From a virus: a stretch of DNA of 45,440 bases. The translations under genes and the position numbers were made by a program. A model generated the notes under the pieces. It was not told where the DNA came from, made no database searches, and saw only the letters and a list, made by a program, of their open reading frames with translations. How positions within the stretch are numbered: the first letter of the stretch is position 1; each line of letters begins with the position of its first letter. This document shows, in pieces, positions 1 through 40,227 of the stretch. The stretch lies in IMG/VR virus record IMGVR_UViG_3300006736_003743, positions 1 through 45,440 of that record, one strand, 5' to 3'.

Positions 1-1074
1 TTAACAAAGGGTCATTTAACAAAAGATGTTGAAAGGGAGTGGGCCAAATACATAGGAACAAAATATGCTGTTTTTAATAATTCTGGCTCATCCGCAAATT
101 TATTAATGATTTATGCTGCACTAAAAGCAGGAAAGCTGAAAAACAATAAGGTGGTTGTTCCGTCAGTTGGATGGGTTACTACAGTCGCTCCCGTCATGCA
201 ATTTGGCTTAGAGCCAATAATGGTCGGTGTCGATAAAAATACTTATGGTATTGATTTGCAACAGCTAGAAGAAACTTGTAAAAGAGAAAATCCAGCCGCT
301 GTAATTTTTGTTCAGGTTTTGGGCGTACCTCACTATAGAGAAGAGCTTTTGGCTCTTAAAGAGAAATATGGTTTTTATCTACTTGAGGATTCTTGTGCAG
401 CTCTTGGCGCCGCATATTCTGATGGGAAAAAGGTTGGAACCGTTGGAGACATGTCTTCTTTTTCGTTTTATTTCGGCCATCAACTATCAACTATTGAAGG
501 CGGAATGGTAAATACAGATGATTACGATGTATATCAGATGTTGTTGATGCTCAGAAGCCATGGTTGGGGAAAAGATTTGGACGAAGAATATTACAATAAG
601 TTAGTTGACAAATATGAGGTTGATGACTTTCATAAGCCGTTTACATTTTTTACAACCGGTTTTAACTTGAGATCGACAGATTTGCAGGCTTTTCTAGGAT
701 TGAGGCAAATTGAAAAAGCTGAATGGGCGGCTAGTGGAAGAAATAGAAATCACTTATTGTACGCGGAAAAATTAAGAGGATATGTAGAATATCAAGATTG
801 GAGAGATCATTTTCCAGTATCAATTTCATTTGGTGCCTTAGCTAACGACAAACAACATAGGAAAGAAATTGTCACAAGATTAGTTGAGGGAGGGGTTGAA
901 ACACGAATATTCAGCGCCGGGAATTTAGGTTTGCATCCATTTTGGGTAGATAAATATGGCAAGTTCGATGACAAAGTTAGTAATGAAATTCATTCTAGAG
1001 GATTTTTCTTGCCCAATTACCCAGAACTAAAAGAAGAAGAGATTGATGTTGTATGTGACATTGTGAGGGGTTAA
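1..1074 (+). CDS. Nucleotide-sugar 3-dehydratase, ColD/E1-like (DegT fold), 5' truncated
   Basis: The reading frame is open from base 1, so the gene starts outside the window; the ATG at 106 lies inside the conserved NSGSSANLL stretch and is not the start. The protein has the DegT/DnrJ/EryC1 (fold-type I PLP) pattern, but where aminotransferases carry the Schiff-base lysine (SFxPxKxxxxGEGG) it has histidine: SFYFGHQLSTIEGG, His codon at 478-480. That swap, with FNLRSTDLQAF and TRIFSAGNLGLHPFW, is typical of GDP-4-keto-6-deoxymannose 3-dehydratase (ColD) and the CDP-sugar dehydrase E1, which use PMP/PLP to remove the C3 hydroxyl of a 4-keto-6-deoxy sugar. I infer a cytosolic dehydratase making a 3-deoxy sugar nucleotide. 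The stop overlaps the next start (TAATG), so the two are probably translationally coupled. The exact nucleotide and sugar cannot be read from the sequence. Confidence 0.85.
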   Translation, partial: LTKGHLTKDVEREWAKYIGTKYAVFNNSGSSANLLMIYAALKAGKLKNNKVVVPSVGWVTTVAPVMQFGLEPIMVGVDKNTYGIDLQQLEETCKRENPAAVIFVQVLGVPHYREELLALKEKYGFYLLEDSCAALGAAYSDGKKVGTVGDMSSFSFYFGHQLSTIEGGMVNTDDYDVYQMLLMLRSHGWGKDLDEEYYNKLVDKYEVDDFHKPFTFFTTGFNLRSTDLQAFLGLRQIEKAEWAASGRNRNHLLYAEKLRGYVEYQDWRDHFPVSISFGALANDKQHRKEIVTRLVEGGVETRIFSAGNLGLHPFWVDKYGKFDDKVSNEIHSRGFFLPNYPELKEEEIDVVCDIVRG

Positions 1075-1805
1075 TGAAGATTTTAGTTATTGGAGAAAGC
1101 TGTAAAGATATTTTCTGTTACGGCGCTTGCGAAAGAATATGTCCTGAAGCACCAGTCCCAGTTTTAAACTTTAAAGAGTCTCATAACTGTGTTGGGATGG
1201 CTATGAATGTACAAAAAAATATTCATGCGCTGGGTGCAAACGCGGATCTTTACACGAATGAATCGTGGGAAAAGATTAGAAAAACACGATTTATAGATTA
1301 TAGAACAAATTATATGTTTATGAGACTTGATGAAAATGAACATTTATACGGCAAAGCGAATGTTAAAAATATTAAATTTGCGGATTACGATGCGATAATT
1401 ATTTCAGATTATAATAAAGGATTTTTAACCAAGGAAGATATTAAATATGTTGCCTCAAATCATGATTGTGTTTTTTTAGATAGTAAAAAGACGATTGGTG
1501 ATTGGAGCGAGGTGGTAAGGTTTGTTAAGATCAACAAGTCAGAATTTGAGAATAGCAAAGAAAGTTTAACTTTGAACATGTATGAAAAACTGATTGTTAC
1601 CTTGGGTTCTGAGGGTTGCATGTATCAAGAAAAAATCTATTCAGTTCCCAAAGTTGAAATTAAGGACTTATCAGGAGCCGGCGACACATTCATGGCTGGT
1701 CTTGCGGTTAATTTTATTCAAACTCGTGATATAATAAAAGCAATAAAGTTTGCAAACGAGTGCGCAACAAGGGTCGTACAAAAGAAAGGTGTGAGCACAA
1801 TATGA
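1074..1805 (+). CDS. PfkB-family sugar kinase, similar to the HldE (RfaE) kinase domain
   Basis: A 243-residue ribokinase-like protein. The N-terminus (MKILVIGESCKDIFCYG) and the following ERICPEAPVPVL resemble the heptose-7-phosphate kinase domain of HldE. The PfkB signature DLSGAGDTFMAGLA lies near residues 198-211 and contains the catalytic Asp of GAGD; IIISDYNKGFL matches the HldE 'DYgKG' segment. HldE kinase domains are about 310-320 residues, so this one is short: between the HALGANADLYT strand and KTRFIDYRTN about 30-40 residues of the usual lid/insert are missing. The likely role is phosphorylation of a heptose phosphate or related sugar at C1 before nucleotidyl transfer by the product at 2521-2922. 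It is coupled on both sides (TAATG upstream, ATGA downstream). Substrate is inferred from family similarity only. Confidence 0.82.
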   Translation: MKILVIGESCKDIFCYGACERICPEAPVPVLNFKESHNCVGMAMNVQKNIHALGANADLYTNESWEKIRKTRFIDYRTNYMFMRLDENEHLYGKANVKNIKFADYDAIIISDYNKGFLTKEDIKYVASNHDCVFLDSKKTIGDWSEVVRFVKINKSEFENSKESLTLNMYEKLIVTLGSEGCMYQEKIYSVPKVEIKDLSGAGDTFMAGLAVNFIQTRDIIKAIKFANECATRVVQKKGVSTI

Positions 1806-2524
1806 AAAATACGGTAAAAGATTTTTGTACTTTGATGAGAATTTTATTGTCCACAGACAAGGAGGAGGAAGAGAGTTCCGGGAAGTTCCCCCTGGACAGT
1901 CATTTGCGAGGAAGCGTTCATCAGCGTAAACGTATAAAAGCATGCGCAGAGTTTTGTGCGCAAAATTATGAAGGAGACCTTGTTGAAATTGGGGCTCTTT
2001 ATGGAGAAACAACAGTTCAATTATGCGAAGTAGCAAAAAAATATAATCGCAAAGTGATTGTAGTCGACCCATGGGATAAATATAATAGAGCTTCTCAGTA
2101 TATTGACGGAACTGAATATAAAATATTTTTAGAAACTGTAGAAGATTATCATGATACGCTCGAGGTCATAAAAGATTCTTCTTTGAATCCAGACGTGTTC
2201 TCAAAAATAAGGGAACGTCAATTATCATTCGCGTTTGTTGATGGAGACCACACTCCAAATGGACTAACGAATGATTTATTAATGGTCGATCATTGTAACG
2301 GCGCCGTTGCTGTTGATGATTTAAGTTATTATCAAAATTGTCCATGTTGCGATAACATGTATTCTTTATCAACTGTTTTTTCTAAATTTTCTGAAAAAAA
2401 CAAATTTTCAAATTTCATCAATACTTTTTGGCGAGAAGGATATATTATAAAAGATCTAGAATTAAGGAATATCCTTAAAACATATCGAACAGCTAAAAAG
2501 GAAGGGCTAAAAGTTTTTTCATGA
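1802..2524 (+). CDS. Class I SAM-dependent methyltransferase (Methyltransf_24-like)
   Basis: A 240-residue protein. I chose the ATG at 1802 because it forms an ATGA overlap with the kinase stop; an in-frame ATG at 1760 would overlap the kinase by 46 bases. Motif I is GDLVEIGALYGETTVQL (about residues 58-74), followed by the acidic motif II in KVIVVDPWDKYN, which should bind the ribose of SAM. FAFVDGDHTPNGLTNDL (around 145) is the post-motif typical of the Methyltransf_24/cephalosporin-hydroxylase/macrocin O-methyltransferase group, where Asp and His residues bind a metal. It lies inside a sugar-nucleotide operon, so O-methylation of a sugar or glycan is plausible, but this is inferred from context. 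Cysteines cluster in YYQNCPCCDN (about residue 180), perhaps a metal or disulfide site. Confidence 0.75.
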   Translation: MKNTVKDFCTLMRILLSTDKEEEESSGKFPLDSHLRGSVHQRKRIKACAEFCAQNYEGDLVEIGALYGETTVQLCEVAKKYNRKVIVVDPWDKYNRASQYIDGTEYKIFLETVEDYHDTLEVIKDSSLNPDVFSKIRERQLSFAFVDGDHTPNGLTNDLLMVDHCNGAVAVDDLSYYQNCPCCDNMYSLSTVFSKFSEKNKFSNFINTFWREGYIIKDLELRNILKTYRTAKKEGLKVFS

Positions 2525-2922
2525 CAATAGTTTGGACGAATGGGTGTTTTGACATATTACACAGAGGCCACATTGAGTTATTTAAATATGCTAAATCTCT
2601 TGGAGATAAGTTGGTTGTAGGGATCGACTCTGATGATAAAGTTAAAAAAGATAAAGGTCAAGACAGACCAATAAACAACCAAAATGATCGTAAATGTTTT
2701 TTAGAGTCGATTAAGTGGGTTGATGAAGTTATTATATTTAACACTCAACAAGAACTAGAAAGTGTGTTACAATATATGAAACCAAACATTATGGTCGTCG
2801 GTTCAGACTGGGAAGGAAAAGGTATAGTTGGCGGCCAACATGCAGAAGAAATTAAATTTTTTAAGAGAATGAAAAAATATTCAACATCGAATATCATAGA
2901 TAAGATAAGGAGAAAACTATGA
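2521..2922 (+). CDS. Nucleotidyltransferase, similar to the HldE C-terminal (ADP-heptose synthase) domain
   Basis: A 133-residue stand-alone cytidylyltransferase-fold protein. WTNGCFDILHRGHIELF contains the HxGH nucleotide-binding motif (HRGH); VGIDSDDKVKKDKG and RPINNQNDRKCFLESI follow the HldE C-domain pattern closely; the C-terminal YSTSNIIDKI matches the ISSTxxI signature. The reaction would join a nucleoside triphosphate (ATP in HldE, CTP in the related TagD/GCT enzymes) to a sugar 1-phosphate. In most bacteria this domain is fused to the PfkB kinase domain as HldE; here the two are separate genes with a methyltransferase between them. Start and stop both form ATGA overlaps with the neighbours. 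An alternative is a glycerol-3-phosphate-type cytidylyltransferase, but the RPIN and DR segments favour HldE. Confidence 0.85.
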   Translation: MTIVWTNGCFDILHRGHIELFKYAKSLGDKLVVGIDSDDKVKKDKGQDRPINNQNDRKCFLESIKWVDEVIIFNTQQELESVLQYMKPNIMVVGSDWEGKGIVGGQHAEEIKFFKRMKKYSTSNIIDKIRRKL

Positions 2923-3894: not shown

Positions 3895-4187
3895 TATTAT
3901 ATACGATATTGGCGTTATCGCTGCTAATAAATGCTGTTTTGCTATGGTATGCGATATACGCCATACGAAAACTTTTATTTATATCTGACAACGCCAATCT
4001 ATTATTAGAAGCGATTGAAAACTTTTCAAGCCATTTAGAGAATCTTTATGAATTAGAAACATACTACGGTGATGAAACTCTGAAAGGCCTTTTGCGACAT
4101 TCAAAATCTGTTGTCGATGATATAAAACATCACAATGATGTTTATTCTCTATTCGAGGAGGAAGAGATTGAAGAAGAGAAAGACTAG
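3891..4187 (+). CDS. Membrane-anchored small protein, conserved near gp55, function unknown
   Basis: A 98-residue protein with one N-terminal transmembrane helix (residues 2-24, ILYTILALSLLINAVLLWYA) followed by a helical, probably cytoplasmic domain. The stretch HLENLYELETYYGDETL and LLRHSKSVVDDI recalls an uncharacterised protein of marine T4-like phages that I associate with the gp55 region, but I cannot verify that here. The C-terminus is acidic (EEEEIEEEKD). Because the end of this gene holds the ribosome-binding site and TTG start of the sigma factor (20-base overlap), the two are translationally linked. A membrane role during infection is an inference from the anchor alone. Confidence 0.68.
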   Translation: MILYTILALSLLINAVLLWYAIYAIRKLLFISDNANLLLEAIENFSSHLENLYELETYYGDETLKGLLRHSKSVVDDIKHHNDVYSLFEEEEIEEEKD

Positions 4188-4857
4188 AACAAAAAGATAT
4201 TATTTTACAAAAATACATGAAGAAGCTATTGTTGAATATGCTAAAACAAACGATAACAAAATAAGAACAGAGTTATATGTGGGGTTGATACAGCCGGCGT
4301 TTAGTGAGATGGTCGATAAGATTGTTTTTACTTACAAGTTTTCCACTCTTCCCAATATTGATCTTTTGCGAGATGAATGTAAGATATGGTTAACAACAAT
4401 TCTTGATAAATATGATCCGGACCGTGGCTCTAAAGCTTTTTCTTATTTTAGCGTTATAACAAAAAATTGGTTTATTCACAAAGTAAAAAGGACAAATTTT
4501 CAATATAAAAGAGAGATACAGTTTGACGATTTATCAAAAGACACCGAATATGCATATATGTCCACAAACAACAAATATAGCGAGGCCCGAGAAGAGGTGG
4601 AATTTTGGCAACACCTTTGGCATCAAATTGATTATTGGACCGAAGAAAAATTAAGACCAAACGAGAGAAAGGTGTTGGAGGCGGTAAAAATTCTTTTACA
4701 AAATTCTCAAGATATTGAGATCTTTAATAAGAAAGCGGTGTATTTATATATGCGAGAACTTACAGGACTTAACACGAAACAAGTTGTCAACAATCTTAAT
4801 AAATTAAGAGTGCGATATAGAAAATTTAAAAAAGAATGGGATAAAGGAAAAATATAG
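4168..4857 (+). CDS. 55: Late-transcription sigma factor, T4 gp55-like
   Basis: I place the start at TTG 4168: a perfect AGGAGG (4156-4161) lies six bases upstream, while the in-frame ATGs at 4135 and 4138 have no ribosome site and would run far into the upstream gene. The product is 229 residues. The central part, LDKYDPDRGSKAFSYFSVITKNWFIHKVKR in outline (about residues 75-105), is the sigma-70 region 2-like core of gp55: an aromatic-rich helix that recognises the -10 element of late promoters and binds the RNA polymerase clamp. There is no region 4. In T4, gp55 directs host RNA polymerase to TATAAATA promoters of head and tail genes and is stimulated by the sliding clamp through its C-terminus; here the C-terminus (RKFKKEWDKGKI) is basic with no obvious clamp-binding motif. 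Confidence 0.82.
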   Translation: MKKRKTRTKRYYFTKIHEEAIVEYAKTNDNKIRTELYVGLIQPAFSEMVDKIVFTYKFSTLPNIDLLRDECKIWLTTILDKYDPDRGSKAFSYFSVITKNWFIHKVKRTNFQYKREIQFDDLSKDTEYAYMSTNNKYSEAREEVEFWQHLWHQIDYWTEEKLRPNERKVLEAVKILLQNSQDIEIFNKKAVYLYMRELTGLNTKQVVNNLNKLRVRYRKFKKEWDKGKI

Positions 4858-4864
4858 ATAATTC

Positions 4865-4882
4865 CTAATTACAATATAGGAG
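4865..4882 (+). promoter_or_regulatory. CTAATTA-type intergenic element plus ribosome site before the tubulin-like gene
   Basis: The 33-base gap after gp55 contains CTAATTA (4865-4871), a TACAAT/ATATA stretch and AGGAG (4878-4882), nine bases from the ATG at 4891. The same CTAATTA word followed at 13-21 bases by a Shine-Dalgarno sequence occurs in three other gaps (18042, 18471, 36793). It may be a promoter core for phage-modified polymerase or just AT-rich spacer; no -35 match is seen. Confidence 0.35.
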
Positions 4883-4890
4883 AGTTTACC

Positions 4891-5970
4891 ATGACTGAAG
4901 AAAATAATGAACTTGAAGAGGTTTACGAAGATGATGATTTTGATTTTGTAGATCACTACGGAGATACAGTTGAAGTTAGCAACGAAGAACAATTAGATGA
5001 GAACTCTGCAGTTTCTGCTTTAAATTGTGCTTTTGTTGGAGTCGGAGGCGGCGGAGGAAAAATGGCAAAATCATTTTTAGATTTAGGTTTTAATAAAACA
5101 TTGCTCATTAATACAACTGAAAAGGATCAGCCAAGCAATATAGATCCAAAACATCTAGTTTTGATCCCTGATGCGGACGGAGTTGCTAAAGATATATCAT
5201 TTGGGAAAACAGTGTTTGAAAATAATGGTGCTGTCGTCGAAGATGCTTTAAGAACAAAATTAGGAAAAGTTGATTGGTTGTTCGTTTTAGCCGGCGGTGG
5301 TGGCGGGACCGGAAGTGCATGTTCATCTTTACATAATGTTTTTGATAGATATATGAAATCAGTTCAGGCAGAAGGAAAAGTGTTTTATATTGTTTCATGG
5401 CCCTCTGCGCAGGAATTATTGAATCCAACAATTGCGAAAAATGCTTTGTCACTATTAAATGATGTTGCGGATTACCCGCACGTTGTGATAGATAATGAAA
5501 GACAAGTTAAACTTTTGCGTGGAAAAGTAGGGATATTAAACATGTTCCCAGTCGCCAATAAAACATTTGCAAAATTATTTTCTCAGATTCTTAAACTGGC
5601 TTCTGAGAAGTCTCCTATACAAACTTTCGATTCCAAAGATCTGGAAAGGACTTTAAAACAAGATGGCAGAACGTTCATAGGTACAACTGTTATTTCCAAT
5701 CCTAAAGATCCAAATCTTGGCGCCTCAATATTTCAAAATTGTTTGCAGAGATCACCTTGTGCTCCCCCAAGGGGAAAACCAAAAACAGGAACAATGTTGC
5801 TTGTTATCACAGAAGAAATGGCGTCCGATCCGATGGTTAGTAAACATTTAGACGCAGCTGTTTCTTATGTTGGAGGAAGAACAGAGACTTTATTTTCAGG
5901 AATCTATGTAAGAAAGAAGCTTCCTGGATTAATTGCCATATTGTCTATGAGTGGATTAGAGGAGATATAA
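4891..5970 (+). CDS. FtsZ/tubulin-superfamily GTPase (phage tubulin)
   Basis: A 359-residue protein. After an acidic N-terminal arm (residues 1-44) the GTPase domain shows loop T1, FVGVGGGGGKMA (48-59); the strand LLINTTEK (71-78), equivalent to the FtsZ 'vNTD' strand; the tubulin signature AGGGGGTGS (134-142); a ribose/base-contact segment VVIDNERQ (198-205); and a T7 loop region TFDSKDLERTL (245-255), in which Asp247 and Asp250 match the two catalytic aspartates of FtsZ (D209/D212 in E. coli numbering). The second domain (about 270-357) follows the FtsZ C-domain order (GTMLLVITEE, then GRTETLFSGIYV, then GLIAILSMSG). There is no conserved C-terminal ZipA/FtsA-binding peptide. I infer a GTP-dependent filament protein of the phage tubulin kind. 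It could centre or move phage DNA or capsids, or interfere with host FtsZ. Confidence 0.85.
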   Translation: MTEENNELEEVYEDDDFDFVDHYGDTVEVSNEEQLDENSAVSALNCAFVGVGGGGGKMAKSFLDLGFNKTLLINTTEKDQPSNIDPKHLVLIPDADGVAKDISFGKTVFENNGAVVEDALRTKLGKVDWLFVLAGGGGGTGSACSSLHNVFDRYMKSVQAEGKVFYIVSWPSAQELLNPTIAKNALSLLNDVADYPHVVIDNERQVKLLRGKVGILNMFPVANKTFAKLFSQILKLASEKSPIQTFDSKDLERTLKQDGRTFIGTTVISNPKDPNLGASIFQNCLQRSPCAPPRGKPKTGTMLLVITEEMASDPMVSKHLDAAVSYVGGRTETLFSGIYVRKKLPGLIAILSMSGLEEI

Positions 5971-5974
5971 ATGA

Positions 5975-6259
5975 ATGAAAGAAATCGACAAATATATGCA
6001 AGAGACTATAGACAACATAAAAGAGGATCGAGACGTAACAAAATCTCTTTTGAAAGATGTTATGATGTATCTTTCAGGCGACGAAACTAGACATGAAAAA
6101 GTTGGGCAAGTTGCTGCCAAATATGTAGAAACTTTACAGCGCTCAAACGAACAACTCGTTAAACTTGTAGCATTAATGCAAAAAAGAGTTGATAAATCGA
6201 TTGACTTCTCCGAAGAAGACAAGGCTCAGTTATTTGAAATGTTAGAGGATGCCGGGTAA
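5975..6259 (+). CDS. Small helical protein, function unknown
   Basis: A 94-residue, almost wholly helical, charged protein. The start is ATG 5975, four bases after the stop of the tubulin-like gene and preceded by GAGGAGAT; an ATG at 5971 is in another frame. The pattern of hydrophobic residues in YVETLQRSNEQLVKLVALMQKRVDK (shown here in outline, about residues 50-75) suggests a coiled coil or four-helix unit. I do not recognise a family. Tight spacing on both sides (ATG directly after TAA at 6259) puts it in one operon with the tubulin-like protein and the amidase. Candidates on context only are a tubulin partner, a small terminase-like oligomer or a tail chaperone; none is supported by a motif. 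Confidence 0.65.
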   Translation: MKEIDKYMQETIDNIKEDRDVTKSLLKDVMMYLSGDETRHEKVGQVAAKYVETLQRSNEQLVKLVALMQKRVDKSIDFSEEDKAQLFEMLEDAG

Positions 6260-8876: not shown

Positions 8877-11800
8877 ATGGCAAGAGATTGGACAAAAATG
8901 AAACCTTTTGTTCCCTTTGTAGATAGGGACTTAAGGGAAATCTCTCAAGAGGAGCATAGACGCTATATAACTAACGGCCATGGCGGCACCATTCCGGATC
9001 CAATCCCGGAGCCAGGTGAGGATCCTCCGCAGGCCTCAGAGGAAGCAGGCGCTCTTGTTGCCAACCGACGTCCAGAAGAGAAAGTAAAACCTAATTTAAA
9101 CGTTGATAAACGAGGCCGTTTCAAGAAAAAGTATCCACCACCGCCTGGCCTTGTATTTAAGGATTTTTATAAAGAGTTAAGTAATGAAGGCCTCACTCAT
9201 CTTTTAGGTCCGAAAGGAGAAGATAGAATATTTGGACCACATCATCAGGCTGCTTATGAGAAATTACAACATCTTGGAAAAATGAAGGGTGGAAAATTCG
9301 GCGCTCATGGCTTAAATTATTCTATTGTTGTTAGTGTGGAAAAGAACTCCGATGGTAAAATTCAATCATTTTATGGAGACTATATCTCGGACATTACTAA
9401 TTCTGAAGATTGGCATATCGATGCCAACAACCTTGCAAGACATGTAGGTTCAGACATATTAGTTCAATGGGCAGGGAAAACAGATATACTATTGACTCCA
9501 TGGCGAACAGCCGCCCCGGGCTCAGATCCAATTGTAACGACAGCCGATGCAGCCACGTGGAAACCTGGTGACGATCCGCCACAAAACAATGCTTTGACTT
9601 TAGACCAACATTATGACGATATGACAGTTAGCGCTGGTGGGACGACACTTAAAATGGTGGTCCCAAATTCTATCGTCGAAACGCCTGATTTTCGAATTGC
9701 AGAGAGAGCGTGTGTTTTGGGCTCACCTTATATACCTCCTGATAATGCAGAATCGGAAGTTCGGTTTCTTGTATCTATGCGATACGAGGACGTACATGGC
9801 AGTTGGGACGATTCCACTGACGGGCCCCCAAACTTATTACAAAATTGGACTCCGGAGGCCTCCACATTAACGACAGTAACATATAAAAAAGAAGATAAGA
9901 CTCAAGGAACTCTTGATCTTACGGGCATCAACCCAGATCAACCAGGCGGAGGACAATACTGGAAGCCAGTTTTTGAAGGAGAGTCTGTCACCTTCACTAG
10001 CTATATTGCATTTTCTAGAAGGATAGACTTGCTAAAGCAAGCTCTGACTGAATATCACGAAGAACTAGAAGTAAGTGATTTTTATTATATTGGGCCAAAT
10101 GTGTACATAATAAAAAGCGAAAACCGTTGGGGCACCGCGACTTTAGCGACTTATCGTGGAGTTATTCTTGATCTTGAAGAAGAAATAGAAGCATTAACTG
10201 AATTTTCTGAACAAATTGGTGATGTTTTTGCCCTGAACGATTCTTCTACCTCCGTGCCATTTCAAATAAGATTTAATGCAGGTCCAAAGCTAGCCTTTTT
10301 GGCGATGCCGCAAGATAGCCGAACACCAGAAGGTGAGCAAGAAGTACCACTTATTGACTATATTGCCATGGCTCAAGGTAATCTAGACAGATCACAAAAA
10401 GCATGGGCAGACCGCGATCTGATTCCTTTAACAAAGGGGATATATGGTCCCGGAGGTATCCTTGGTCGAAAAATAGGCCCTAGAACTTATAATCCGAACA
10501 CGGAGTACGATAATGGTCCCATGTCTTTATCCGGAATGGACGGATGGGGCGCCTCTCAATTACAGGGGTATTATGCCCCTAGTTATCCATTTGATAGACC
10601 GCGAACGCTTCATTTTGTTAGAGCACTAAAACAAATAACTGATATACTCATATCAAGTTATGGCCTTAGTTCAGATTTCCTTTCCGCTCCAGGCGGCCCC
10701 GGGGCCATGGCAGGCCTTAATTGTAATCTCTCACCTTTGGCAAAAAATGAAGATGCGCCAACTCTAGATGAATTTGTAAAAAAGCACGTCCGCCCCCTTC
10801 CTGTTAAAGAAGCCAATACACTAAGAAAAGAAGGCGAAGAGCCAAATGTGGCGGAGATATTGTTGGGTGCGAAAAAGTGGAAAAAAGATTGGGTAGCATT
10901 AAAAACAAAATTTGATTCTTTATCCGAAGAAGAGTTCTTTTCAGACGCATCCGTTCAGTATATTCTTGATCGAAAAAACATGAAGGCAAGTGATTATGTG
11001 GGCGATTTGGTTTTTCAAAGTCTTCCTAAAAATCCAGATAGAATTAGAAATTTACATGACTTATACGCTTTTGTGTTAAATAGTATCGATCTGCCAACTC
11101 TTATTGCGGAGATGATGGTATGTATGGGTTTAGGTTATTCACTAGATGATTTGATTAATATGATGTGTAAGAAACTTCTCAAACAAATTAATGACAGTAC
11201 AGATGGCGGCCTAAACAAGTTGGTTGAATTTTTGGATGATGGAAGTTTTGGCCCTGTAGGAGAGTTTGTTGGAGTTAGTCCAAGATTAGTTACTGCTGAA
11301 CTAAGAAGAGCGATTGCAGATAACGTTGGTCCGGGTGGAGCCACCACTGGCTCTGCAGCAATTGATCAGTTTATGAGCAGAACCGATACTGACACAAAAA
11401 GATGGCTTTGTGAAATTATAGCTTTTGGACCGTTTGCTGGTATCGCAGCACTTTGGAATCTTATAAAAAGGATGAAAAAGAAGGACAAAGAAGACATCTT
11501 CAAAAATCCAAAAGTTCCAAAAAAAGATCCTTGTAGACAATCGATAAAAGTTCCGGAACGACAATCTCTTCTTGAGGGAATTCTTGATTATCTGTTGAAA
11601 ATTGCACAAAGAAGGGCAGAACAATGGTTAATGGAACAAATTTTCAAATACGTAGCCCTGCCTGTTAAAGAAGCCATTTGGGCAATCCTAGAATATTGTG
11701 CCGAAGATGATGCATCTTTCAACTTAGAACTCGGCACTGAAGATGATTTTCCATCTGAAAAAAGAGAAGCGCTTAGTAATTTGACAGGAGGGGAGGGTGA

Positions 11801-14800
11801 TTTTCTTACACAACTATATGCGTCTCTAACGAGAGATGAGATTTGTATATTGTTGACGGAGGCATTAAAAGATAAAACCGAAACAACAAAGAATGTAATT
11901 GATAAAGTAATCAAGTTTTCCGAGAAGAAAGAATCAGAATTCCCTTACATGGCTAAAAAATTATCAGAGAGAAGCAGGGTTATAGACTTTTTCGATAAAA
12001 CTAGTAAATTAGTAGATACCTCTATATGTGATGAGCCGGTCTTCGATATTCCAAGTTATGATGATTTGTGTGAGCTTGGAGAATTAACTTCAAGAGATAT
12101 CGCCCTCATTAAAAAATATAGGGCTTCAGGTATGTCGACCAAAAAAATAGCGCAGCAACTTGTTTTGCGTAAAAAAGAGCAAGGAAGAGTTATTAGTGAT
12201 ATGCTTGATGTCATGATCGAGGGAGGCAGCGCAAGAATCTCTGATCCCTCTTCCAATGCGGGCGTAATGGAAGCTAAAATTATGAGCCTTGAACCTGGCG
12301 CTCGAGCAGCGATTGACGGGGCATACGCCGCCGCCGAGGCGATGTTTAAAGCAGAGGTTCAAAATTATTCTAGTATAGCGTTGAGTGAAGACTTTCTAGA
12401 AAAGATGAGGCAAGAAAACGCAGCCCTCGGTGAGCAAAAGTTGTTTGGCGCTTATGAACCAGAAAAATTGAACAGAAACCATAATTATATACTAAAGGTT
12501 GAAGCCAACGTTAATTCTCCATATGGTTCAAATGCGTCTATTTGTGCATCAATTAAAAGACAGACAAGTTTAATGAGAAAATTGATAAATGCCCTGAAGC
12601 AAGATTTTGTACATAATGTTTTAGTAGATAAAACAACTTTTGGTGATGGCACGGATGAAAGTCAACAAGACCTTGCAACGCACGGACCCCACTCCCCAGA
12701 GCGCTATACTTATTTTGCTGACAACTATAAAGGAAAATCCGGCGCCCCCGTTTCTGTAAGAAAAAGAGAATGGGAATGGTATAATGGCCTTGAAGAATTT
12801 ATGGTATCCGGCCGGTATCTTACCGACACAAAAGAACGGGCCGGTAAAAATCTGTTTGCAAGCAGGTGGGCAAACTATAGGTATAGTTGGGACTCAAAGT
12901 CGGACCATTGGGGGCGAAATAATATTACAAGATATGACAATTATGTCGCGGCATTGGAAAACTTAACTTCCGATGAGCAGGATGATTTGGCTAGAATTGC
13001 ATTTAGATATTACACAAGATATAATGATTACACAGGGAAAACTACTGAACTAGCAGATGAGACAAAATTAAGGTTGAAAGCCGACCGCCCGGACCATTTT
13101 TCATCATTTGCTAAAGACCCATTAGAATTAAGTGAACAAGATTGGAATTTAGCACTTGGTGAAAACACAGCTGTATTCCGGGGCGCAGACGTCGCTCGTG
13201 GAAACTCTGATGCTAAACTTCCACGTCATTCTTATGGGTCGCGAACAGCTGGTACCCTCACTGCGCCAGGCAAATCCATCTATGACAAAATCAATACGTG
13301 GACAAAAGTTGTTGAAAAGCTAGCTAGTAGAACTCAAGATAAAAAATGGCCTGGAGTAATAGGCCCTGATGATAGATGGAGAGACCGCCCACCAGCGGAA
13401 TGGGCTACGGGAAAGCCAATAAAAGCGGCTGTACAACTCTTAACTTGGAATTGGGATATTGGTGAGGATAAGAAAATTTTGGGACTCCATGAACCGCCAC
13501 TTTTAGGTTTCCATTTAATAGAGGCATTCAAATATTATAAAAGAGGAATAAAAAAACTAGGAGGATACCATCACAATGGTACGGATTATGGCGAGTTTGT
13601 CTATTTGGAATCAGTTAACACTGATCCTCCGGGAAAGATAAAAGTTGTTTACGAGCGTGCATACGTAGAGAAAAAACAAAAACACGGCCCCACAGGCATG
13701 TGGTGGTGGGAAGAAGACGCGTATTATACTGGTGATAATGTGTTGGAAGATCTAGGCAATAGATTTGGCGGCGATATACTTGATATTCCATCGACAGTTG
13801 ATCCGGACACTGGCAAGGCTGTATCTTTTCGAAGATCTGATCGTCCAACACCATGGAGTACCTACCATTGTGATGAAGCCCTTAAAGAATTGTCGAAGCC
13901 TTCTATACTAGAGGTTGTGTATACTATGTTACCACCACATGCTGATGACATTGGTGGTGAGTTTGGCCCGGGCTCCCCCGGCTCAGGATGCTTGAATGAT
14001 CGATACCAAGTGCGGATGGCTGGCGTATCATCAAATGGACCAGATCAAATTGTAGAATACGAAAATAACAATCATATAAAAATTTCTGAACCATCGCCAT
14101 TCCCGGCCGAAGATACAGGAGAAAAGGAAAGAAAACGTCATATTGCAAAGGCCAGAAAAATTTTGATGGATCCAGATGGGATATATAAAATGTCTCCGGT
14201 AGATCTAGCAGGCTATAATAAAAATCGTCCGTTGGCACCTCAAGTATATAGAAAAATTCTTGCGAATGTTATACAATCTTCTAACCTTGCTTATCCTGAT
14301 GCCTCTGATGGCGGCCCAATTTATGCGATGATTAAACAGCAAGTTGATAAATATGGTGCATACAGATTGTATGGCGATGCATTTCGAGTAACACTTAGAC
14401 ACATGCTTAAGGTTATTGAAACTAGTTTTGAAACTTTTGAAATTAGTTTAGTGGGTACGAATATGTATGATTTGGCAAAAGTTAAAAAAGGCGCGCTAGA
14501 ACAATGGAAGAAGTTCGCTTCTGAATCTGAAAAAGGTATACCGGACGTTGTTAAGACTTTTGTTCAATGGCCGCCGGCCCGCAAAGGCGTAGATAAATGG
14601 GAAAAAGATTCAAATTATGGCCCTGCTGCAATTAAGGCGATGATTAAGTTGTATATTATTGATCAAGCACTTAAAATGGTTTTGGTTACAGGCACCTTCA
14701 AAATTAGTGATATTATTTCTGAAGATATTATGCAATCGTTTCTTGCCAACGTGATTAGTTCGAACGAATACATGTTTGACACCATTGTGAAAGAATATGG

Positions 14801-17800
14801 AAACAGCACAATTACTATAAATGAAATGGTCTCGGAATTAGCTTTTGAATTGAATGGTGTTTTGTCTGGGGTTTTTGACACTTCTCAAGCTTCTGATGCG
14901 ACAAACGATTTGACAATTATGATTGCTGGTCCTAAAGTTTACAGTGTACCAAGAACATCTCAGTTTTGCAAGAAGAGGAATGTCGATCATCATCCAATTA
15001 TGGGCGACGATCCCACGGCTCCACTTTGGCCAGGAGAAGGTATTTTGGTCCATCACGCCGGCGAGGACATAGTGCACAAATATTATCAACATCTTTATAC
15101 TGAGCCTAGACTATATGATCGTGCTAATGAATTAGGTTCAATGAAACAAAATAGATCTGGCTTTATTTTGGAAAAATATATTCGAATAAAATTTAATGAA
15201 TATGAAAAACTCACAGAAAAATTAACGGATATATTGAAGGTGGAGGGAAACGAGCAAAAACAAAAAAATATAGAGAGTTTTATTGCTAAGCTAAAAAAAT
15301 TCCCATTAGAGTATAAAGGAAGACCCGGCCAAACAGACGCCTATCTCAGCCCGGGCGAATTTACAGAGGTATATGAAGATCTTTTTGAAGTCAACCAAGA
15401 TACTAAACGCCCTTTGTTTGAAGACCCTTCTGTTTTTGATTGGCAACAATCACTTAATCCGGTAAAATTTAAAAAAGCTTTAGTAGAAAAAGCTCGCGAA
15501 GGCGTCGCGCTAGGCGGCGCCGAAGGTGCCAAAATTTTAAGAGCGGTAGAAGTCCAAAGACAGATAGCACTTATGGAAACAATGAATTGCTTAAAAAAAT
15601 CCCATGGCAATGAAGATGCGCGAGGCTATTCTAGCCGCTGGGACCACTCTAGGGGCAACGCTGGAATAATGTGGCATACAGTTTATGATGTGTATGAAGT
15701 CCATAAAACTGAAGATGCAAGAGCTTATATAGACAAAAGCCTAAACAGAAGAATTAACAAAGATTATATTGTACCACCATGGAAATCGGATAGGCCAAAA
15801 GGTAGAAAAGTTGATGACGCCTTACCGGAGTTTGTAACTAGATGGTATGGTAGAAATAATGTAGCCAACTACGCCGGCACCGGTTACCGCCCGGCGAGGC
15901 ACCCGTTGAAGGATTGGTCCGGGACAATCATCGGGCAAGGCGCATTCTCGCTGAAGGCACCCGACCCGCTTTATGAAGAATTTGCTGAAGATTGGATTCC
16001 GGAAAAAGACTTGATTAGAATTGCATTTAGATATTATACGAGATATACATATAATAATATGATGACCCGAATGGTACCTACCACAGCACAAATGAATACA
16101 GAGGGGGGCATGAAAGCCTATAAACTTCATATCATGAAAATGATAACGCAATTTCCCAATATTGATTATAGTTCGTTTTATATAGATCCTTATGAGCTAT
16201 CTACCAACGACTGGAATGCGCATATGATGCACCGAAAACCGGGAACCGACGAATCTGGCTATGCAATAGTGATAGATTGGTCCACCGACACGCCGAAAAC
16301 TTTATGGCATGATGAAAAAGATACCGCATTCGGCGCAGATGCATGGCCTCGAATCACTTATTATGGAGGCCTGATCTCCGAAGGGGGTCAAACATTATTC
16401 ACAGAACAAGAATTAAGAGATATGGTTCCTGAAGGACAAGTGTATGGCCTCTTTCATACAAAAGCTGATATTATTGGCCCAAGGGGCGGGTATGTGTCTC
16501 GCGAAATAGAGAGTGAGCCTAAAGTTCCCGGGAAAAAACACGATAACGAATCCGATCTTTATTTCTATGAAAGCGAAGCCGACCACGACTCGTGGCAATG
16601 GGGCGGTTTCGATGCAACTGGGCTTCCTGTTAATAATATCGCGTCAGGGGAACGCCCCACTGGAAGATTCAATAATAGATTTTTAGGTACACTTTTGGGA
16701 AGTTTTGATTATGTAGCAGGCCCATATTGGAAGGAGATCAAACATATAGTTGGCGGTGTGCTGGGCGGCTGGGGATCAGTCGGGGGAGAGACGGTCTTTC
16801 AAGAGGTGGACGCGTCACAAGGCGAAGGTGATCACCATAATGATATTCATGGTCTATTTTTTGGCACCGATCTTTTTCATGCCCTGAATTATTACAAAAA
16901 TGGCTCCCCTGTCATTAAACAAATACCAGCGGATCAAGAAGGTGTCTTCGATCCGAATACATTAGGGGGGTTGAGCCCCTTGGAGCTTCTTGTCCCACCG
17001 GAGCATAAAGTGAGCGCCCCTGCGGTTTTAGAGGAGTGGGCTCAAGATCTTGTGGAGGTTCCAATACAAGAATATGCAGAAGAACTCAAATATGGACTCC
17101 GACTCTCATATGTCTTTTCAAACCATTCAGAGAATCATCGTCTAGACAAGATAAAAAAAGAGATTAAATTCTATGCCCAACCGGCCTTGGCTTCCGCGCG
17201 CCACGAAGATCAAGGTACCCTCCTTGAATATGATAAAACAAGTGGGGATGTTGTTGAAGATTCGGAAGTAATAATAAACCTTCCAGCTCACACCTCTCAG
17301 CTTAAAAGAATAAAAGAGATGAAAGCATTTTACATGAAAGAAGTTCCGGTAGATTTTGGACTTGAGGTTTTCGCGCCAGAGGGTACAAGTATGGCCCTAT
17401 CCGAAGAAATTTCAGAACAATATGAAATATTTTCTATTCCTGTATTTGAGATCGAGCAACCAGCAGAGGGAACAGTATCAGATATTAATTACACAACAAT
17501 ACCAGGCGCCGGCGGAACTGTTCAAAAACAGCTTTGGGCACAGATGAAACAAAACGACAATTTTAAAGTATTGTTTGAATACGTCTTCCCACTGAAGCGA
17601 ATGTTGGGAATGATTGGAATTTATAATATTTTTAACTATAGCAAAAATATTCCAGACTTTGAGAATCCATTTCATAAAACTTCTTCTATTCTTTCGCAAC
17701 TTATGAGTGTAGCAGATAAGGGGCATCTAGATATGGAGGAACTCCTCGCCCAAAACAAAACGCGCGCTATCATCATGAATATGTTGTCCGAAAATGACCT

Positions 17801-17957
17801 CGCTGACGAAAAACTGGCCGCCACCATGGCCGCCCTCAAAGCGGCGCAGGAGGAAAAAGCTGAGCAGGCAAAAGACGCCATTGCTGGCGTCATGGAGACA
17901 GTAGAAAATTCGATGGCGATATTTGGGATTAGTGACGACGACTCCGATGATTCCTGA
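8877..17957 (+). CDS. Giant baseplate/tail structural protein (3026 residues)
   Basis: One uninterrupted 3026-codon frame whose start directly follows the spike gene stop. No enzyme motif is visible. The N-terminal 60 residues are Pro/Gly-rich and flexible. The body is rich in Tyr and Trp, unlike a coiled-coil tape measure. Two segments contain strongly amphipathic or hydrophobic helices (about residues 740-780 and 845-970, such as WLCEIIAFGPFAGIAALWNL). A module is duplicated: IAFRYYTRY plus SSFxxDPxELSxxDWN occurs near residues 1373-1425 and 2381-2435, each followed after 150-250 residues by a 'GxxLxxAxxYYKxG' stretch. The C-terminal 70 residues are Ala/Glu-rich helix ending in DDDSDDS. The gene lies between spike and gp25, so a baseplate protein is most likely; a gp29-like ruler is possible but less so. 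The UGA stop is followed by an in-frame Gly/Ser tail. Confidence 0.75.
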   Translation: MARDWTKMKPFVPFVDRDLREISQEEHRRYITNGHGGTIPDPIPEPGEDPPQASEEAGALVANRRPEEKVKPNLNVDKRGRFKKKYPPPPGLVFKDFYKELSNEGLTHLLGPKGEDRIFGPHHQAAYEKLQHLGKMKGGKFGAHGLNYSIVVSVEKNSDGKIQSFYGDYISDITNSEDWHIDANNLARHVGSDILVQWAGKTDILLTPWRTAAPGSDPIVTTADAATWKPGDDPPQNNALTLDQHYDDMTVSAGGTTLKMVVPNSIVETPDFRIAERACVLGSPYIPPDNAESEVRFLVSMRYEDVHGSWDDSTDGPPNLLQNWTPEASTLTTVTYKKEDKTQGTLDLTGINPDQPGGGQYWKPVFEGESVTFTSYIAFSRRIDLLKQALTEYHEELEVSDFYYIGPNVYIIKSENRWGTATLATYRGVILDLEEEIEALTEFSEQIGDVFALNDSSTSVPFQIRFNAGPKLAFLAMPQDSRTPEGEQEVPLIDYIAMAQGNLDRSQKAWADRDLIPLTKGIYGPGGILGRKIGPRTYNPNTEYDNGPMSLSGMDGWGASQLQGYYAPSYPFDRPRTLHFVRALKQITDILISSYGLSSDFLSAPGGPGAMAGLNCNLSPLAKNEDAPTLDEFVKKHVRPLPVKEANTLRKEGEEPNVAEILLGAKKWKKDWVALKTKFDSLSEEEFFSDASVQYILDRKNMKASDYVGDLVFQSLPKNPDRIRNLHDLYAFVLNSIDLPTLIAEMMVCMGLGYSLDDLINMMCKKLLKQINDSTDGGLNKLVEFLDDGSFGPVGEFVGVSPRLVTAELRRAIADNVGPGGATTGSAAIDQFMSRTDTDTKRWLCEIIAFGPFAGIAALWNLIKRMKKKDKEDIFKNPKVPKKDPCRQSIKVPERQSLLEGILDYLLKIAQRRAEQWLMEQIFKYVALPVKEAIWAILEYCAEDDASFNLELGTEDDFPSEKREALSNLTGGEGDFLTQLYASLTRDEICILLTEALKDKTETTKNVIDKVIKFSEKKESEFPYMAKKLSERSRVIDFFDKTSKLVDTSICDEPVFDIPSYDDLCELGELTSRDIALIKKYRASGMSTKKIAQQLVLRKKEQGRVISDMLDVMIEGGSARISDPSSNAGVMEAKIMSLEPGARAAIDGAYAAAEAMFKAEVQNYSSIALSEDFLEKMRQENAALGEQKLFGAYEPEKLNRNHNYILKVEANVNSPYGSNASICASIKRQTSLMRKLINALKQDFVHNVLVDKTTFGDGTDESQQDLATHGPHSPERYTYFADNYKGKSGAPVSVRKREWEWYNGLEEFMVSGRYLTDTKERAGKNLFASRWANYRYSWDSKSDHWGRNNITRYDNYVAALENLTSDEQDDLARIAFRYYTRYNDYTGKTTELADETKLRLKADRPDHFSSFAKDPLELSEQDWNLALGENTAVFRGADVARGNSDAKLPRHSYGSRTAGTLTAPGKSIYDKINTWTKVVEKLASRTQDKKWPGVIGPDDRWRDRPPAEWATGKPIKAAVQLLTWNWDIGEDKKILGLHEPPLLGFHLIEAFKYYKRGIKKLGGYHHNGTDYGEFVYLESVNTDPPGKIKVVYERAYVEKKQKHGPTGMWWWEEDAYYTGDNVLEDLGNRFGGDILDIPSTVDPDTGKAVSFRRSDRPTPWSTYHCDEALKELSKPSILEVVYTMLPPHADDIGGEFGPGSPGSGCLNDRYQVRMAGVSSNGPDQIVEYENNNHIKISEPSPFPAEDTGEKERKRHIAKARKILMDPDGIYKMSPVDLAGYNKNRPLAPQVYRKILANVIQSSNLAYPDASDGGPIYAMIKQQVDKYGAYRLYGDAFRVTLRHMLKVIETSFETFEISLVGTNMYDLAKVKKGALEQWKKFASESEKGIPDVVKTFVQWPPARKGVDKWEKDSNYGPAAIKAMIKLYIIDQALKMVLVTGTFKISDIISEDIMQSFLANVISSNEYMFDTIVKEYGNSTITINEMVSELAFELNGVLSGVFDTSQASDATNDLTIMIAGPKVYSVPRTSQFCKKRNVDHHPIMGDDPTAPLWPGEGILVHHAGEDIVHKYYQHLYTEPRLYDRANELGSMKQNRSGFILEKYIRIKFNEYEKLTEKLTDILKVEGNEQKQKNIESFIAKLKKFPLEYKGRPGQTDAYLSPGEFTEVYEDLFEVNQDTKRPLFEDPSVFDWQQSLNPVKFKKALVEKAREGVALGGAEGAKILRAVEVQRQIALMETMNCLKKSHGNEDARGYSSRWDHSRGNAGIMWHTVYDVYEVHKTEDARAYIDKSLNRRINKDYIVPPWKSDRPKGRKVDDALPEFVTRWYGRNNVANYAGTGYRPARHPLKDWSGTIIGQGAFSLKAPDPLYEEFAEDWIPEKDLIRIAFRYYTRYTYNNMMTRMVPTTAQMNTEGGMKAYKLHIMKMITQFPNIDYSSFYIDPYELSTNDWNAHMMHRKPGTDESGYAIVIDWSTDTPKTLWHDEKDTAFGADAWPRITYYGGLISEGGQTLFTEQELRDMVPEGQVYGLFHTKADIIGPRGGYVSREIESEPKVPGKKHDNESDLYFYESEADHDSWQWGGFDATGLPVNNIASGERPTGRFNNRFLGTLLGSFDYVAGPYWKEIKHIVGGVLGGWGSVGGETVFQEVDASQGEGDHHNDIHGLFFGTDLFHALNYYKNGSPVIKQIPADQEGVFDPNTLGGLSPLELLVPPEHKVSAPAVLEEWAQDLVEVPIQEYAEELKYGLRLSYVFSNHSENHRLDKIKKEIKFYAQPALASARHEDQGTLLEYDKTSGDVVEDSEVIINLPAHTSQLKRIKEMKAFYMKEVPVDFGLEVFAPEGTSMALSEEISEQYEIFSIPVFEIEQPAEGTVSDINYTTIPGAGGTVQKQLWAQMKQNDNFKVLFEYVFPLKRMLGMIGIYNIFNYSKNIPDFENPFHKTSSILSQLMSVADKGHLDMEELLAQNKTRAIIMNMLSENDLADEKLAATMAALKAAQEEKAEQAKDAIAGVMETVENSMAIFGISDDDSDDS
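12993..13023 (+). repeat. Copy 1 of a duplicated segment in the 3026-residue protein
   Basis: These 31 bases, encoding RIAFRYYTRY, match 16017-16047 at 29 of 31 positions by direct reading; both differences are synonymous. The surrounding protein (SSFAKDPLELSEQDWN just downstream) also aligns with the second copy, but the DNA there has diverged. This marks an internal tandem-module duplication within one gene. Confidence 0.75.
16017..16047 (+). repeat. Copy 2 of a duplicated segment in the 3026-residue protein
   Basis: Partner of 12993-13023, about 3.0 kb apart. The protein downstream (SSFYIDPYELSTNDWN) aligns with SSFAKDPLELSEQDWN of copy 1. The near identity is limited to this short stretch, so either the motif is under strong constraint or short gene conversion has kept it alike. 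Confidence 0.75.
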
Positions 17958-21908: not shown

Positions 21909-24900
21909 ATGAGTACTAAAGATTATTTTAAAAATAATTCCTATCTATCGATGAGTTCGATGGATAAAATTGGGAAAAAAGTAGAGTCTGGCGACTTTAT
22001 GGAAGCTCAACATGTAAAAAGACAAAGATTTTTACCAAATGTCGATTTTTCAACAGCTAGTAATTTTGTAAGATTCGGTTCGGCTGAAGAATATTATGAA
22101 CAATCTATAAAGAGAGTGTGGAAGACTTACCCATACGATGGCTCTCGTTATGAGAAGACAGCATGGGTGAATAGTTCATCTTATTTGGACTTGTTTCTTT
22201 TTGAAAACGAATACCCACGTACAACTGGGTACATAAATTTAGGCACAGTCGCGGAAGGCGGCGGATCCACAGGTTGGGGCACCAAAGTTACGATGTCGAA
22301 CACTTATGGCCATGCCGACGACACCAGCGCCGGCTCGGCAGCTCGTGCCGTTATGCACAATTATGGCTATGGTGCTCCCGCATCTGCTTCATATGAATAT
22401 ATTTTTATTAAAGGTGGTCCAAACCCTGATGTAAGTGGTAATTTTAAAACTGGAGAGCCAAATGTCTACAAATTATCAAAAAATCGCGAATCTAATCTTA
22501 AAATAGGCGGAAGTGACGGCAATACGGTGGAATTTTGGATGAAAAAGGCAGATTTCGATGCCGCCAAAACTGAAAAAGAAGTTATTTTAGATGTATACAC
22601 GACAGCATCGATTTCTTCAAGCGCCGATTATGGAAGACTGACAATTGAAATGTCTGGCCATGGCGGAGCAACAACCAGTGATTCTCCTTTTTATGTTACC
22701 TATATGTCAGGAACAACTGGTATTGCATCGGCGTCAATTGGTTCTGGAGTAACAACATCAACTGTTGCTGATAACGCATGGCATCATTATGCTTTTGTGT
22801 TTGAGAATAGAGGAACTAAAATTCAAGCCACCTTATATGTCGACGGAGAGCAAAATCATCAAATTCAGAGCGGCAGTACTGTTGGATATGTCAGTGGCAA
22901 TTTGATAGCGAACTTAGGCGCCCTTGCAGCTGCTCCGTCAGCGTCACAGGGGGCCCTTCTTAAAGAAGTTGGAATTTTAAATACAAAAGCTAATTCTCAT
23001 ATGTTTGGCTGGGGAAAACTTTCGGCCTCACTCGATGAATTTAGATATTGGAAAGAGGCAAGAGATGCGGAACAAATAGGTAAAAATTATTTTACGCAAG
23101 TTTACGGAGGTGCTAACACCGATGATGCCAATACGCAACTGGGAGTTTATTACAAATTTAACGAAGGGGTAACAACAACATCCAGTATCGATAATAGGGC
23201 TCTAGATTACTCTGGAAGGGTTTCTAATGGTGCATGGACAGGATATTCAGGAAGTACTGCCCCATCGCGAAACACTGGTTCTGCAATTGTATCTGCAAGT
23301 GTAGCGTCAAGCGAATTTAGAGATCCGATTATTTATTCTCACCATCCAGACGTTAGTGATCTTTGGCATTCTAAAAGCCGTGACGGAAGATGGTTTGATG
23401 GGCAAAATCCTTCTTCTATGTACCACACTATGCCGGAGTGGATTAGATCAAGTGATTTTGATTACGCGCAACACTTATTAAAGTTAACTCAAATTATGTC
23501 GAGCTATTTTGACACTCTCGCGTTACAGATAAAATCTCTCCCTGAAATTGGACATCCGGTTTATCAAAATATCACAAGTAGCCTCAAAGCTCCCCCATGG
23601 GCAGCTAATATGTTATCTTCAGTCGGGTTTGTAGCGCCAGAAATATTTGCAGACGCATCGGTTGTTGAACAATTTTCTTTACAAAATGATGAAAGACTAT
23701 TCTCCGAAGACATAAATGATGTTAAAAACCTTATTTATCAAAATATATATAATAATTTAAACTACATTTACAAATCAAAAGGTACAGAAAAAGCATTCAG
23801 AAACTTAATTAGATGTTTTGGCGTTGATGATGATTTGATTAAATTAAATATTTATGCGAACAATGTAACATATGAAATAAAAGACAACTATAGAAACTCA
23901 TCCAAAGCAAAGAAGTATGCCAATTTCTTTAATGCTAGTCACGCCGGCGCCACAGTTTATCAAATGAGTTCTAGCACAGTTGGGAATTCTGTTTCCTTTA
24001 TATCTGGAGCCGGCCAAAATCAAATATTGAGCGGTACTGCGCATACGTTTCAAGCGGAAATTATTTTCCCGAAATTTTTAGACAATAACCCTCACTTTAA
24101 TGTTTTACCTTTGACATCATGTTCTTTGTTCGGTGTACACGAGGCCATATCTTCTGGAGCTGCAGCGCAGACCACTCAGAATGACACAACTTGGGGTTCT
24201 CCAGATAGCGCCTCAATACAAGTGTACGCTGTAAAAAAAGATAACCTCACACCACATGTTTATTTCAGAGCGACGTCAAGTTATTTTGGCATAGACCTTA
24301 CTTCACCTTTGTTTTCTGATGTTTACGACAATCAAAAATGGAATTTAGCAGTGAGAGTAAAGCCCGGAGCGTACCCATGGGCTAGTGGAGTAAGTGGAAG
24401 TGGCGACCATGGTCAAACTAGGAGCGTGGCCACATCTGGTTCGATTGAATTTTATGGAGTCCACGCTGATCATACTCATATTTATAATGAATTTGAAGTA
24501 AGTTCTTCATATATTCTTAGTAAATATCATGATTGGGTAGATGCGCCAAAAAGATTTTATATTGGAGCCCATAGAACAAATTTCACGGGTGCCGTAGACG
24601 TCAAGTCTAATGTGAAAATTGGCTCATTTAGATATTGGTTGCACAATCTTTCAAACGATGCTATCAAAGCTCACGCTAAAGATCCGGACAATTACGGTAC
24701 GGAACACCCACTTAGAAGTGCTTACTTATTTCAGAATGCAAATAATCAGATGTTTGGGAAAAATATCCCAGAAACAAGAACTCTTGCGATCCATTGGGAT
24801 TTTTCAAAATTAACCGGATCGGATTCAAGTGGAGAATTTATTGTTGAAGATCGATCATCGGGCTCTGCAACCGTTGCAGAATTAGGCGTAGCAGGATCAT

Positions 24901-40146: not shown

Positions 40147-40227
40147 CATATGATTAAAAATGTGATACATTAATAAAAACTGTACTATTTATATTAAAAA
40201 ACTATTTAATTTTAAGGGGAAAAAAAC
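40147..40227 (+). promoter_or_regulatory. 81-base AT-rich gap before the 40228 gene
   Basis: One of the few gaps above 50 bases. It is about 80 % A+T by eye. AAGGGG at 40214-40219 is the ribosome site for the ATG at 40228. TATTTATA (40186-40193) is the exact reverse complement of the T4 late promoter box, but no gene runs leftward. No GC-rich hairpin is present. It probably holds a promoter for the group of three structural genes downstream, although no box on the + strand is convincing. Confidence 0.35.

Follow-up and report, generated by a model that had tools for sequence, protein, structure and literature searches.

What is a tubulin-type GTPase doing in a phage of the T4 superfamily? The question is raised by IMG/VR virus record IMGVR_UViG_3300006736_003743, from an uncultured ocean virus of bacteria, of which the stretch analysed here (positions 1 to 45,440; 45,440 nucleotides; the window) contains a complete 359-residue open reading frame (ORF) within a run of co-directional genes. 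The ATG lies at 4891 and the stop codon at 5968-5970, as a sequence-only reading of the window had placed them, and a Shine-Dalgarno sequence is in place. In the literature, phage tubulins are described as PhuZ of nucleus-forming phages (PMC13282480). PhuZ occurs in 66% of chimallin phages (PMC10299810), tubulin is found in marine phiKZ-like phages (PMC9123017), and "a handful" of large phages outside the Chimalliviridae have one (PMC11835377). Studies so far have treated phage tubulins as part of the nucleus lifestyle (PhuZ) or of partition (TubZ). It is near certain that the window gene encodes a tubulin/FtsZ-superfamily protein, and together with its relatives (family A) it forms a subfamily of its own among tubulin/FtsZ GTPases, in large T4-superfamily phages. 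Family A is large and apparently undescribed; we found no account of a T4-superfamily FtsZ-like family in the open-access literature searched.

Membership of the superfamily is supported by profiles and by fold. The sole Pfam match of the window protein is PF00091 (residues 47-205, E=1e-7), which scores 32.9 bits for the protein alone, 0.1 under the 33-bit cut-off, and passes the cut-off with flanking context; 45 of 46 relatives match it as well. The sole NCBIfam match is the FtsZ profile TIGR00065, at 36.1 bits against an equivalog cut-off of 295.2 bits that is not reached. All 46 members match TIGR00065, the window copy under the cut-off. Searches of the PDB with the single sequence and with the family profile matched FtsZ, CetZ, and TubZ chains only. 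With the profile, CetZ 3zid was found at E 6.5e-8 and TubZ chains at 6e-7 and 3e-5, weaker than FtsZ, and no PhuZ chain appeared at E<=0.01. The phmmer match of longest coverage was a CetZ (residues 54-354). An AlphaFold2 model built from 46 relatives (predicted local distance difference test, 92.1; predicted template modelling score, 0.88) has a six-stranded GTPase domain linked by a 23-residue central helix H7 (215-237) to a C-terminal domain that ends in a helix (314-328) and two final strands (333-340 and 347-356). Foldseek ranks CetZ highest (3zid, E 5.6e-20), followed by FtsZ and TubZ (to about 1e-18), and its list of viral matches includes PhuZ models. The sequence-only reading had proposed an FtsZ/tubulin-type GTPase. 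No competing Rossmann family came up in the profile search, and the predicted structure shows the tubulin fold with its two domains, so this identity stands.

The motifs of the GTPase site named in that reading, namely, T1, the GGGGGTGS signature, and D247/D250, proved correct, as did their residue numbers (Table 1). D247 and D250 align with the T7 aspartates of FtsZ. Among the 46 relatives, with identity down to 53%, the T1 glycines, the T3 NTT, the GGGTGS core of T4, and the T7 F-D-S-K-D with both of its aspartates are invariant, and GVGGGGGK and GGGGGTGS as wholes are near-invariant. The T7 form F-D-x-x-D is kept in about 125 of 129 distinct bodies, the other four giving no match to the search pattern. 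Strong purifying selection acts on the family A gene, with a median ratio of nonsynonymous to synonymous substitution rates (dN/dS) of 0.03 among close pairs. Based on the conserved loops T1, T3, T4, and T7 and this dN/dS, the protein appears to retain both the binding of nucleotide and polymer-linked hydrolysis, as had been claimed, and both appear to be selected. Judged by its residues, family A looks like a catalytically intact GTPase.

The two ends of the protein set it apart. By alignment and model, the chain stops just past the last strand of the C-domain, with no FtsZ C-terminal peptide, no linker, and no H11-type tail; that the peptide is missing had been noted before and taken to argue for an independent filament, a reading that we keep as putative. 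Host mimicry via a peptide of the FtsZ type was discarded because family A has none. The N-terminal arm had been described as an acidic arm of 44 residues. It is indeed acidic (17 D/E and no K/R) but not merely so, since it carries a near-universal and sometimes repeated aromatic peptide. F17 and F19 of this peptide are invariant in the 46 relatives. An acidic residue followed by [DE]F[DG]F is found in nearly all members, usually 35 residues ahead of T1 (29 in one subgroup), and 44 of 129 members have two to three copies of the peptide. When a stricter pattern was scanned in six genomes, five had a match in the tubulin, one of them matching again in an unrelated short ORF; in the sixth (G010), the strict pattern missed the tubulin because its copy reads SDFDFV. 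The peptide is thus essentially restricted to the tubulin in the genomes scanned. Model confidence is low over residues 1-30 of the arm, which together with the repetition of the peptide suggests that the arm is a flexible docking peptide.

How family A relates to known tubulins was examined in a tree of 56 sequences comprising family A, a second viral family (family B), PhuZ, and FtsZ, the latter sampled from Bacteroidota and E. coli. The four groups form separate clades: family A (97/94), family B (99/99), FtsZ (99/100; stem 2.9), and PhuZ (100/100; long stem). Family A falls outside the FtsZ clade, in answer to the suggested phylogeny with host FtsZ, and likewise outside the PhuZ clade. Because of the long branches, we are unsure of the deep branching order. 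In hhalign comparisons, family A matches family B at 1e-38, FtsZ at 7e-11 over 291 columns, and PhuZ at 1e-6 over 127 columns in the GTPase part only. Its identity is about 26% to family B, about 19% to FtsZ, and 16% to PhuZ. Family B, an FtsZ-like family discovered via a terminase relative (loci L431:1471-2610 and L436-L463), has an acidic arm of its own. Some of these arms start with LDIP or LNIP, which is reminiscent of the FtsZ C-terminal peptide, yet they are N-terminal.

A tubulin in a T4-superfamily genome had been called unusual. This holds among cultured phages, but in the uncultured T4-superfamily group represented in IMG/VR, the gene is common. With a single protein query, IMG/VR yielded 68 loci, and with a profile the matching stretches numbered at least 354; family A is absent from 50,697 deposited phage records. 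A contamination check showed the FtsZ matches in the phage collection to be cellular-looking FtsZ, mostly in unannotated records, and distinct from family A. A T4-type major capsid protein was found in all 16 tested carrier records of >100 kb. Nine of these carriers, of 123-293 kb, all have homologues of gp13, gp17, gp20, gp21, gp23, gp46, gp47, and gp61, and most of them also have gp18, gp19, gp25, gp41, UvsX, and RNase H; T4 gp43, gp44, gp45, gp62, and gp32 were not detected in these nine. A DNA polymerase of polymerase family A is present in eight of nine large carriers searched, and one of polymerase family B is present in none. Nor did the nine carriers of 123-293 kb yield PhuZ or, with a single divergent phiKZ gp54 as the query, a phiKZ-type shell protein, and no second tubulin was detected in carriers. 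A set of carrier genomes (G003-G011, behind L050, L038, L089, L096, etc.) keeps a gp55-like sigma factor without a recognizable gp45 clamp, which raises the question of how late transcription proceeds there. The 293-kb record has a tandem pair of gp23-type capsid genes (G003:C1 176245-180096).

Judged by terminase and capsid, the nearest relatives in culture are Flavobacterium phage immuto, Microcystis phage Mel-JY01, and Rhodothermus phage RM378, and a PF00091 protein is absent in all three. Three further tubulin-bearing contigs (L139, L140, and L141) lie in Flavobacteriales bins and are probably stray phage contigs. Such contigs and the position of immuto as the nearest cultured relative hint at Bacteroidota hosts.

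In gene maps of the carriers, built from simple ORF calls, many lineages have the tubulin either between capsid and neck genes or flanked by portal and protease genes. Tubulin distances track those of capsid, portal, and terminase (Mantel r of 0.65, 0.68, and 0.67, respectively; p=0.0005), and in 84% of pairs the tubulin has diverged less than the capsid protein has. Because it diverges in step with capsid, portal, and terminase even though it moves, the tubulin is an old gene, inherited mostly by vertical descent, whose location shifts.

With regard to timing, T4-type TATAAATA late promoters were not found before the late genes of these phages, and ACTATTTAT emerged instead. This motif stands ahead of the genes for tail sheath (6 of 13), tube (3 of 13), gp13 (3 of 14), and gp25 (3 of 13) and ahead of none of 61 early genes (UvsX, gp41, NrdA, RNase H, and PolA). 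Upstream of genes, the 8-mer ACTATTTA shows 11-fold enrichment in 14 genomes, most of which have a strong strand bias of CTATTTA[TA]. We consider ACTATTTAT a candidate for the late promoter served by the gp55-like sigma factor of these phages. Upstream of the tubulin gene, CTATTTA is present in sense orientation in 12 of 95 cases, compared with 0 of 95 on the antisense strand, which suggests late expression of the tubulin, in some of the lineages at least. No exact match lies upstream of the window copy. Elsewhere in the window the motif is found at 40185, 40202, 7759, and 32891 (+), and it is also found in the G003-G062 records.

The immediate surroundings of the gene in the window are lineage-specific. 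The upstream neighbor had been taken for a gp55-type late sigma factor. This identity is borne out at the family level, with matches to the late-sigma PHROG in eight of nine members (4e-7 at best), the window copy itself matching weakly (E=0.03). The adjacency is confined to one lineage: the window and its four nearest relatives have the tubulin between the gp55-like gene and that of a 94-residue helical protein, whereas every other genome checked has those two genes side by side and the tubulin elsewhere. We therefore abandoned inference from the gene neighbors in the window alone. The 94-residue protein, paired with the gp55-like gene in those related genomes in which both occur, is a possible gp33-like co-activator. 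The T4-superfamily context read from gp25 and gp6 holds, both profile matches in the window being solid. Around these two genes lie ORFs of 3026 and 3383 residues (8877-17957 and 21909-32060), which are probably baseplate or tail proteins and gave no PHROG match in the parts scanned. At the start of the window (1-2922) is a sugar-nucleotide cassette with a DegT-type aminotransferase, a PfkB-type kinase, a methyltransferase, and a heptose kinase/adenylyltransferase PHROG protein (3.9e-52), possibly pointing to synthesis of ADP-heptose or a glycan by the phage.

Table 1. Positions in the window of the family A gene, its sequence features, and its neighbors
Feature	Position	Strand	Basis
Tubulin/FtsZ-superfamily GTPase gene (family A phage tubulin), 359 aa	4891..5970	+	ORF, profiles, model, Foldseek
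Shine-Dalgarno AGGAGAG, 6 nt upstream of ATG	4878..4884	+	Sequence
Acidic N-terminal arm, residues 1-44	4891..5022	+	Sequence, model
Arm peptide DFDFV, residues 16-20	4936..4950	+	Alignment of relatives
T1 loop GVGGGGGK, residues 50-57	5038..5061	+	Alignment of relatives
T4/tubulin signature GGGGGTGS, residues 135-142	5293..5316	+	Alignment of relatives
T7 loop QTFDSKDL, residues 244-251, with catalytic-type aspartates D247 and D250	5620..5643	+	PDB alignment, relatives
gp55-type late sigma factor gene, adjoining the tubulin in this lineage only	4135..4857	+	PHROG match, genome comparison
94-aa helical protein, usually direct neighbor of the gp55-type gene	5975..6259	+	Genome comparison

What, then, might the protein do? 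We propose, giving it an even chance of being right, that family A builds a GTP-driven phage filament that is made late, has its tether at the N terminus, and handles DNA or capsids, similar to PhuZ but without a nucleus. GTP-bound monomers would stack head to tail, the T7 loop of one completing the GTPase site of the next, and thereby give a dynamic filament. From this filament, the flexible arm with its one to three acidic-aromatic peptides would project and tether a cargo or an anchor. Produced largely alongside the late genes, the filament may move or position phage DNA or new capsids during assembly, acting like PhuZ but lacking both the nucleus and the PhuZ C-terminal tail. The link to assembly is drawn from the placement of the gene among capsid/neck or portal/protease genes in many lineages. 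Filament formation, GTPase activity, and cargo are all properties that we infer for family A, and several observations weigh against this proposal. The candidate promoter motif is present at just 12 of the 95 tubulin copies, and a distant shell protein could be missed with one divergent query. The position of the gene shifts, with some lineages having it near PhoH, primase, or gp55-like genes or before a terminase block, and the link to head genes is not universal. A phyletic comparison of 10 carriers with 4 noncarriers gave no dedicated partner gene: only the tubulin itself showed the 10/0 pattern, the next best (9/1) being a gene that resembles a HAD-type phosphatase by its DxDxT motif. Finally, several relatives of 120-322 kb share about 60 core genes and have no tubulin; family A is therefore widespread but not universal and not essential to this type of phage.

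The other explanations are less favored. Phage inhibitors of FtsZ are well known, and family A might be a host-division antagonist that engages host FtsZ or its regulators, by co-assembly or by titration, to block or redirect septation during a long infection. Its profile is nearer to FtsZ than to PhuZ in the hhalign comparison, as would suit this role, but with about 19% identity, shared protofilaments with host FtsZ are unlikely, and there is no C-terminal peptide for binding FtsA or ZipA. In addition, the protein keeps all catalytic residues, which a pure poison would not need, and descends with virion genes instead of showing the rapid change of an arms race, its dN/dS being as low as 0.03. 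We regard such an antagonist as unlikely. The recurrent location between capsid/neck or portal/protease genes and the co-divergence with capsid and portal could also fit a GTP-switched ring or short oligomer that acts locally when heads or necks are built, whether as an assembly factor or as a minor component of the virion, in place of a long cytoskeletal filament. Close relatives with the same head genes, however, manage without the tubulin, its position is not fixed, and the intact T7 residues imply longitudinal stacking, all of which leaves this role rather improbable.

A TubZ-like filament that partitions DNA, by which phage genomes would be segregated while a carrier or pseudolysogenic state lasts, would agree with the high Foldseek TM-scores to TubZ (TMq up to 0.74) and has a known precedent in a phage-encoded TubZ partition system (cited in PMC7824862). 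Against it, family A has no conserved TubR-like gene adjoining, no iteron-like tandem array nearby, and no TubZ-type H11 helix or tail, and its carriers are T4-type phages; we think it slightly more doubtful still than the local assembly role. Acquisition of a PhuZ-family member from phiKZ-like phages, for which one could cite the shared superfamily, the occurrence in large phages, and the PhuZ models among the viral Foldseek matches, is very improbable. In the tree, PhuZ stands apart with full support and a long stem, mean identity to it is 16%, the PDB profile search gave no match to it at E<=0.01, and no phiKZ-type shell was detected.

If the proposed filament is real, families A and B would extend phage cytoskeletons far beyond the nucleus-forming phages. 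A conserved, catalytically intact tubulin in T4-type phages with no detectable shell uncouples phage tubulin from the nucleus and raises the question of what a cytoskeleton does where no nucleus needs centring. It suggests that filament building extends beyond nucleus-forming jumbo phages. We see slightly less than an even chance that a whole uncultured T4-superfamily lineage, some of its members >200 kb, builds a GTP-driven filament for virion assembly or genome positioning without a nucleus, its cargo held on an N-terminal peptide array and not on a C-terminal tail in the manner of PhuZ. The two families add two deep viral branches to the FtsZ/tubulin tree, the arm offers a candidate docking peptide, and relatives of Flavobacterium phage immuto are a pointer to the isolation of a carrier phage.

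Among known systems, the nearest viral entries are unstudied FtsZ-like GTPases, namely, PHROG 17961 and the BFVD entries A0A6J5RW92 and A0A8S5UFG9, which are only weakly similar to family A and are annotated automatically or as unknown. PHROG 17961 matches family A at 7e-5 and family B at 1.9e-7, so family B seems to be the closer of the two. CetZ of archaea provides the top Foldseek match and the longest phmmer coverage, but identity over the structural alignment is about 18%, and family A has no archaeal context. TubZ of plasmids and prophages shares the fold and the intact T7-type hydrolysis residues, whereas family A lacks a TubR partner, iterons nearby, and the H11 helix or C-terminal tail. 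FtsZ has the same T1, T4, and T7 motifs, the same two-domain fold, and a C-domain ending at the last strand, and it supplies the best PDB sequence-profile relatives. In contrast, family A is phage encoded, forms a separate clade, and carries the [DE]F[DG]F arm in place of a linker or C-terminal peptide. PhuZ of the Chimalliviridae has a long C-terminal helix and an acidic tail where family A has almost nothing past the last strand, and the carriers of family A are T4-superfamily phages with no shell detected. Nevertheless, both are tubulin-superfamily GTPases encoded by phages with large genomes, and for both an intracellular filament during infection is proposed.
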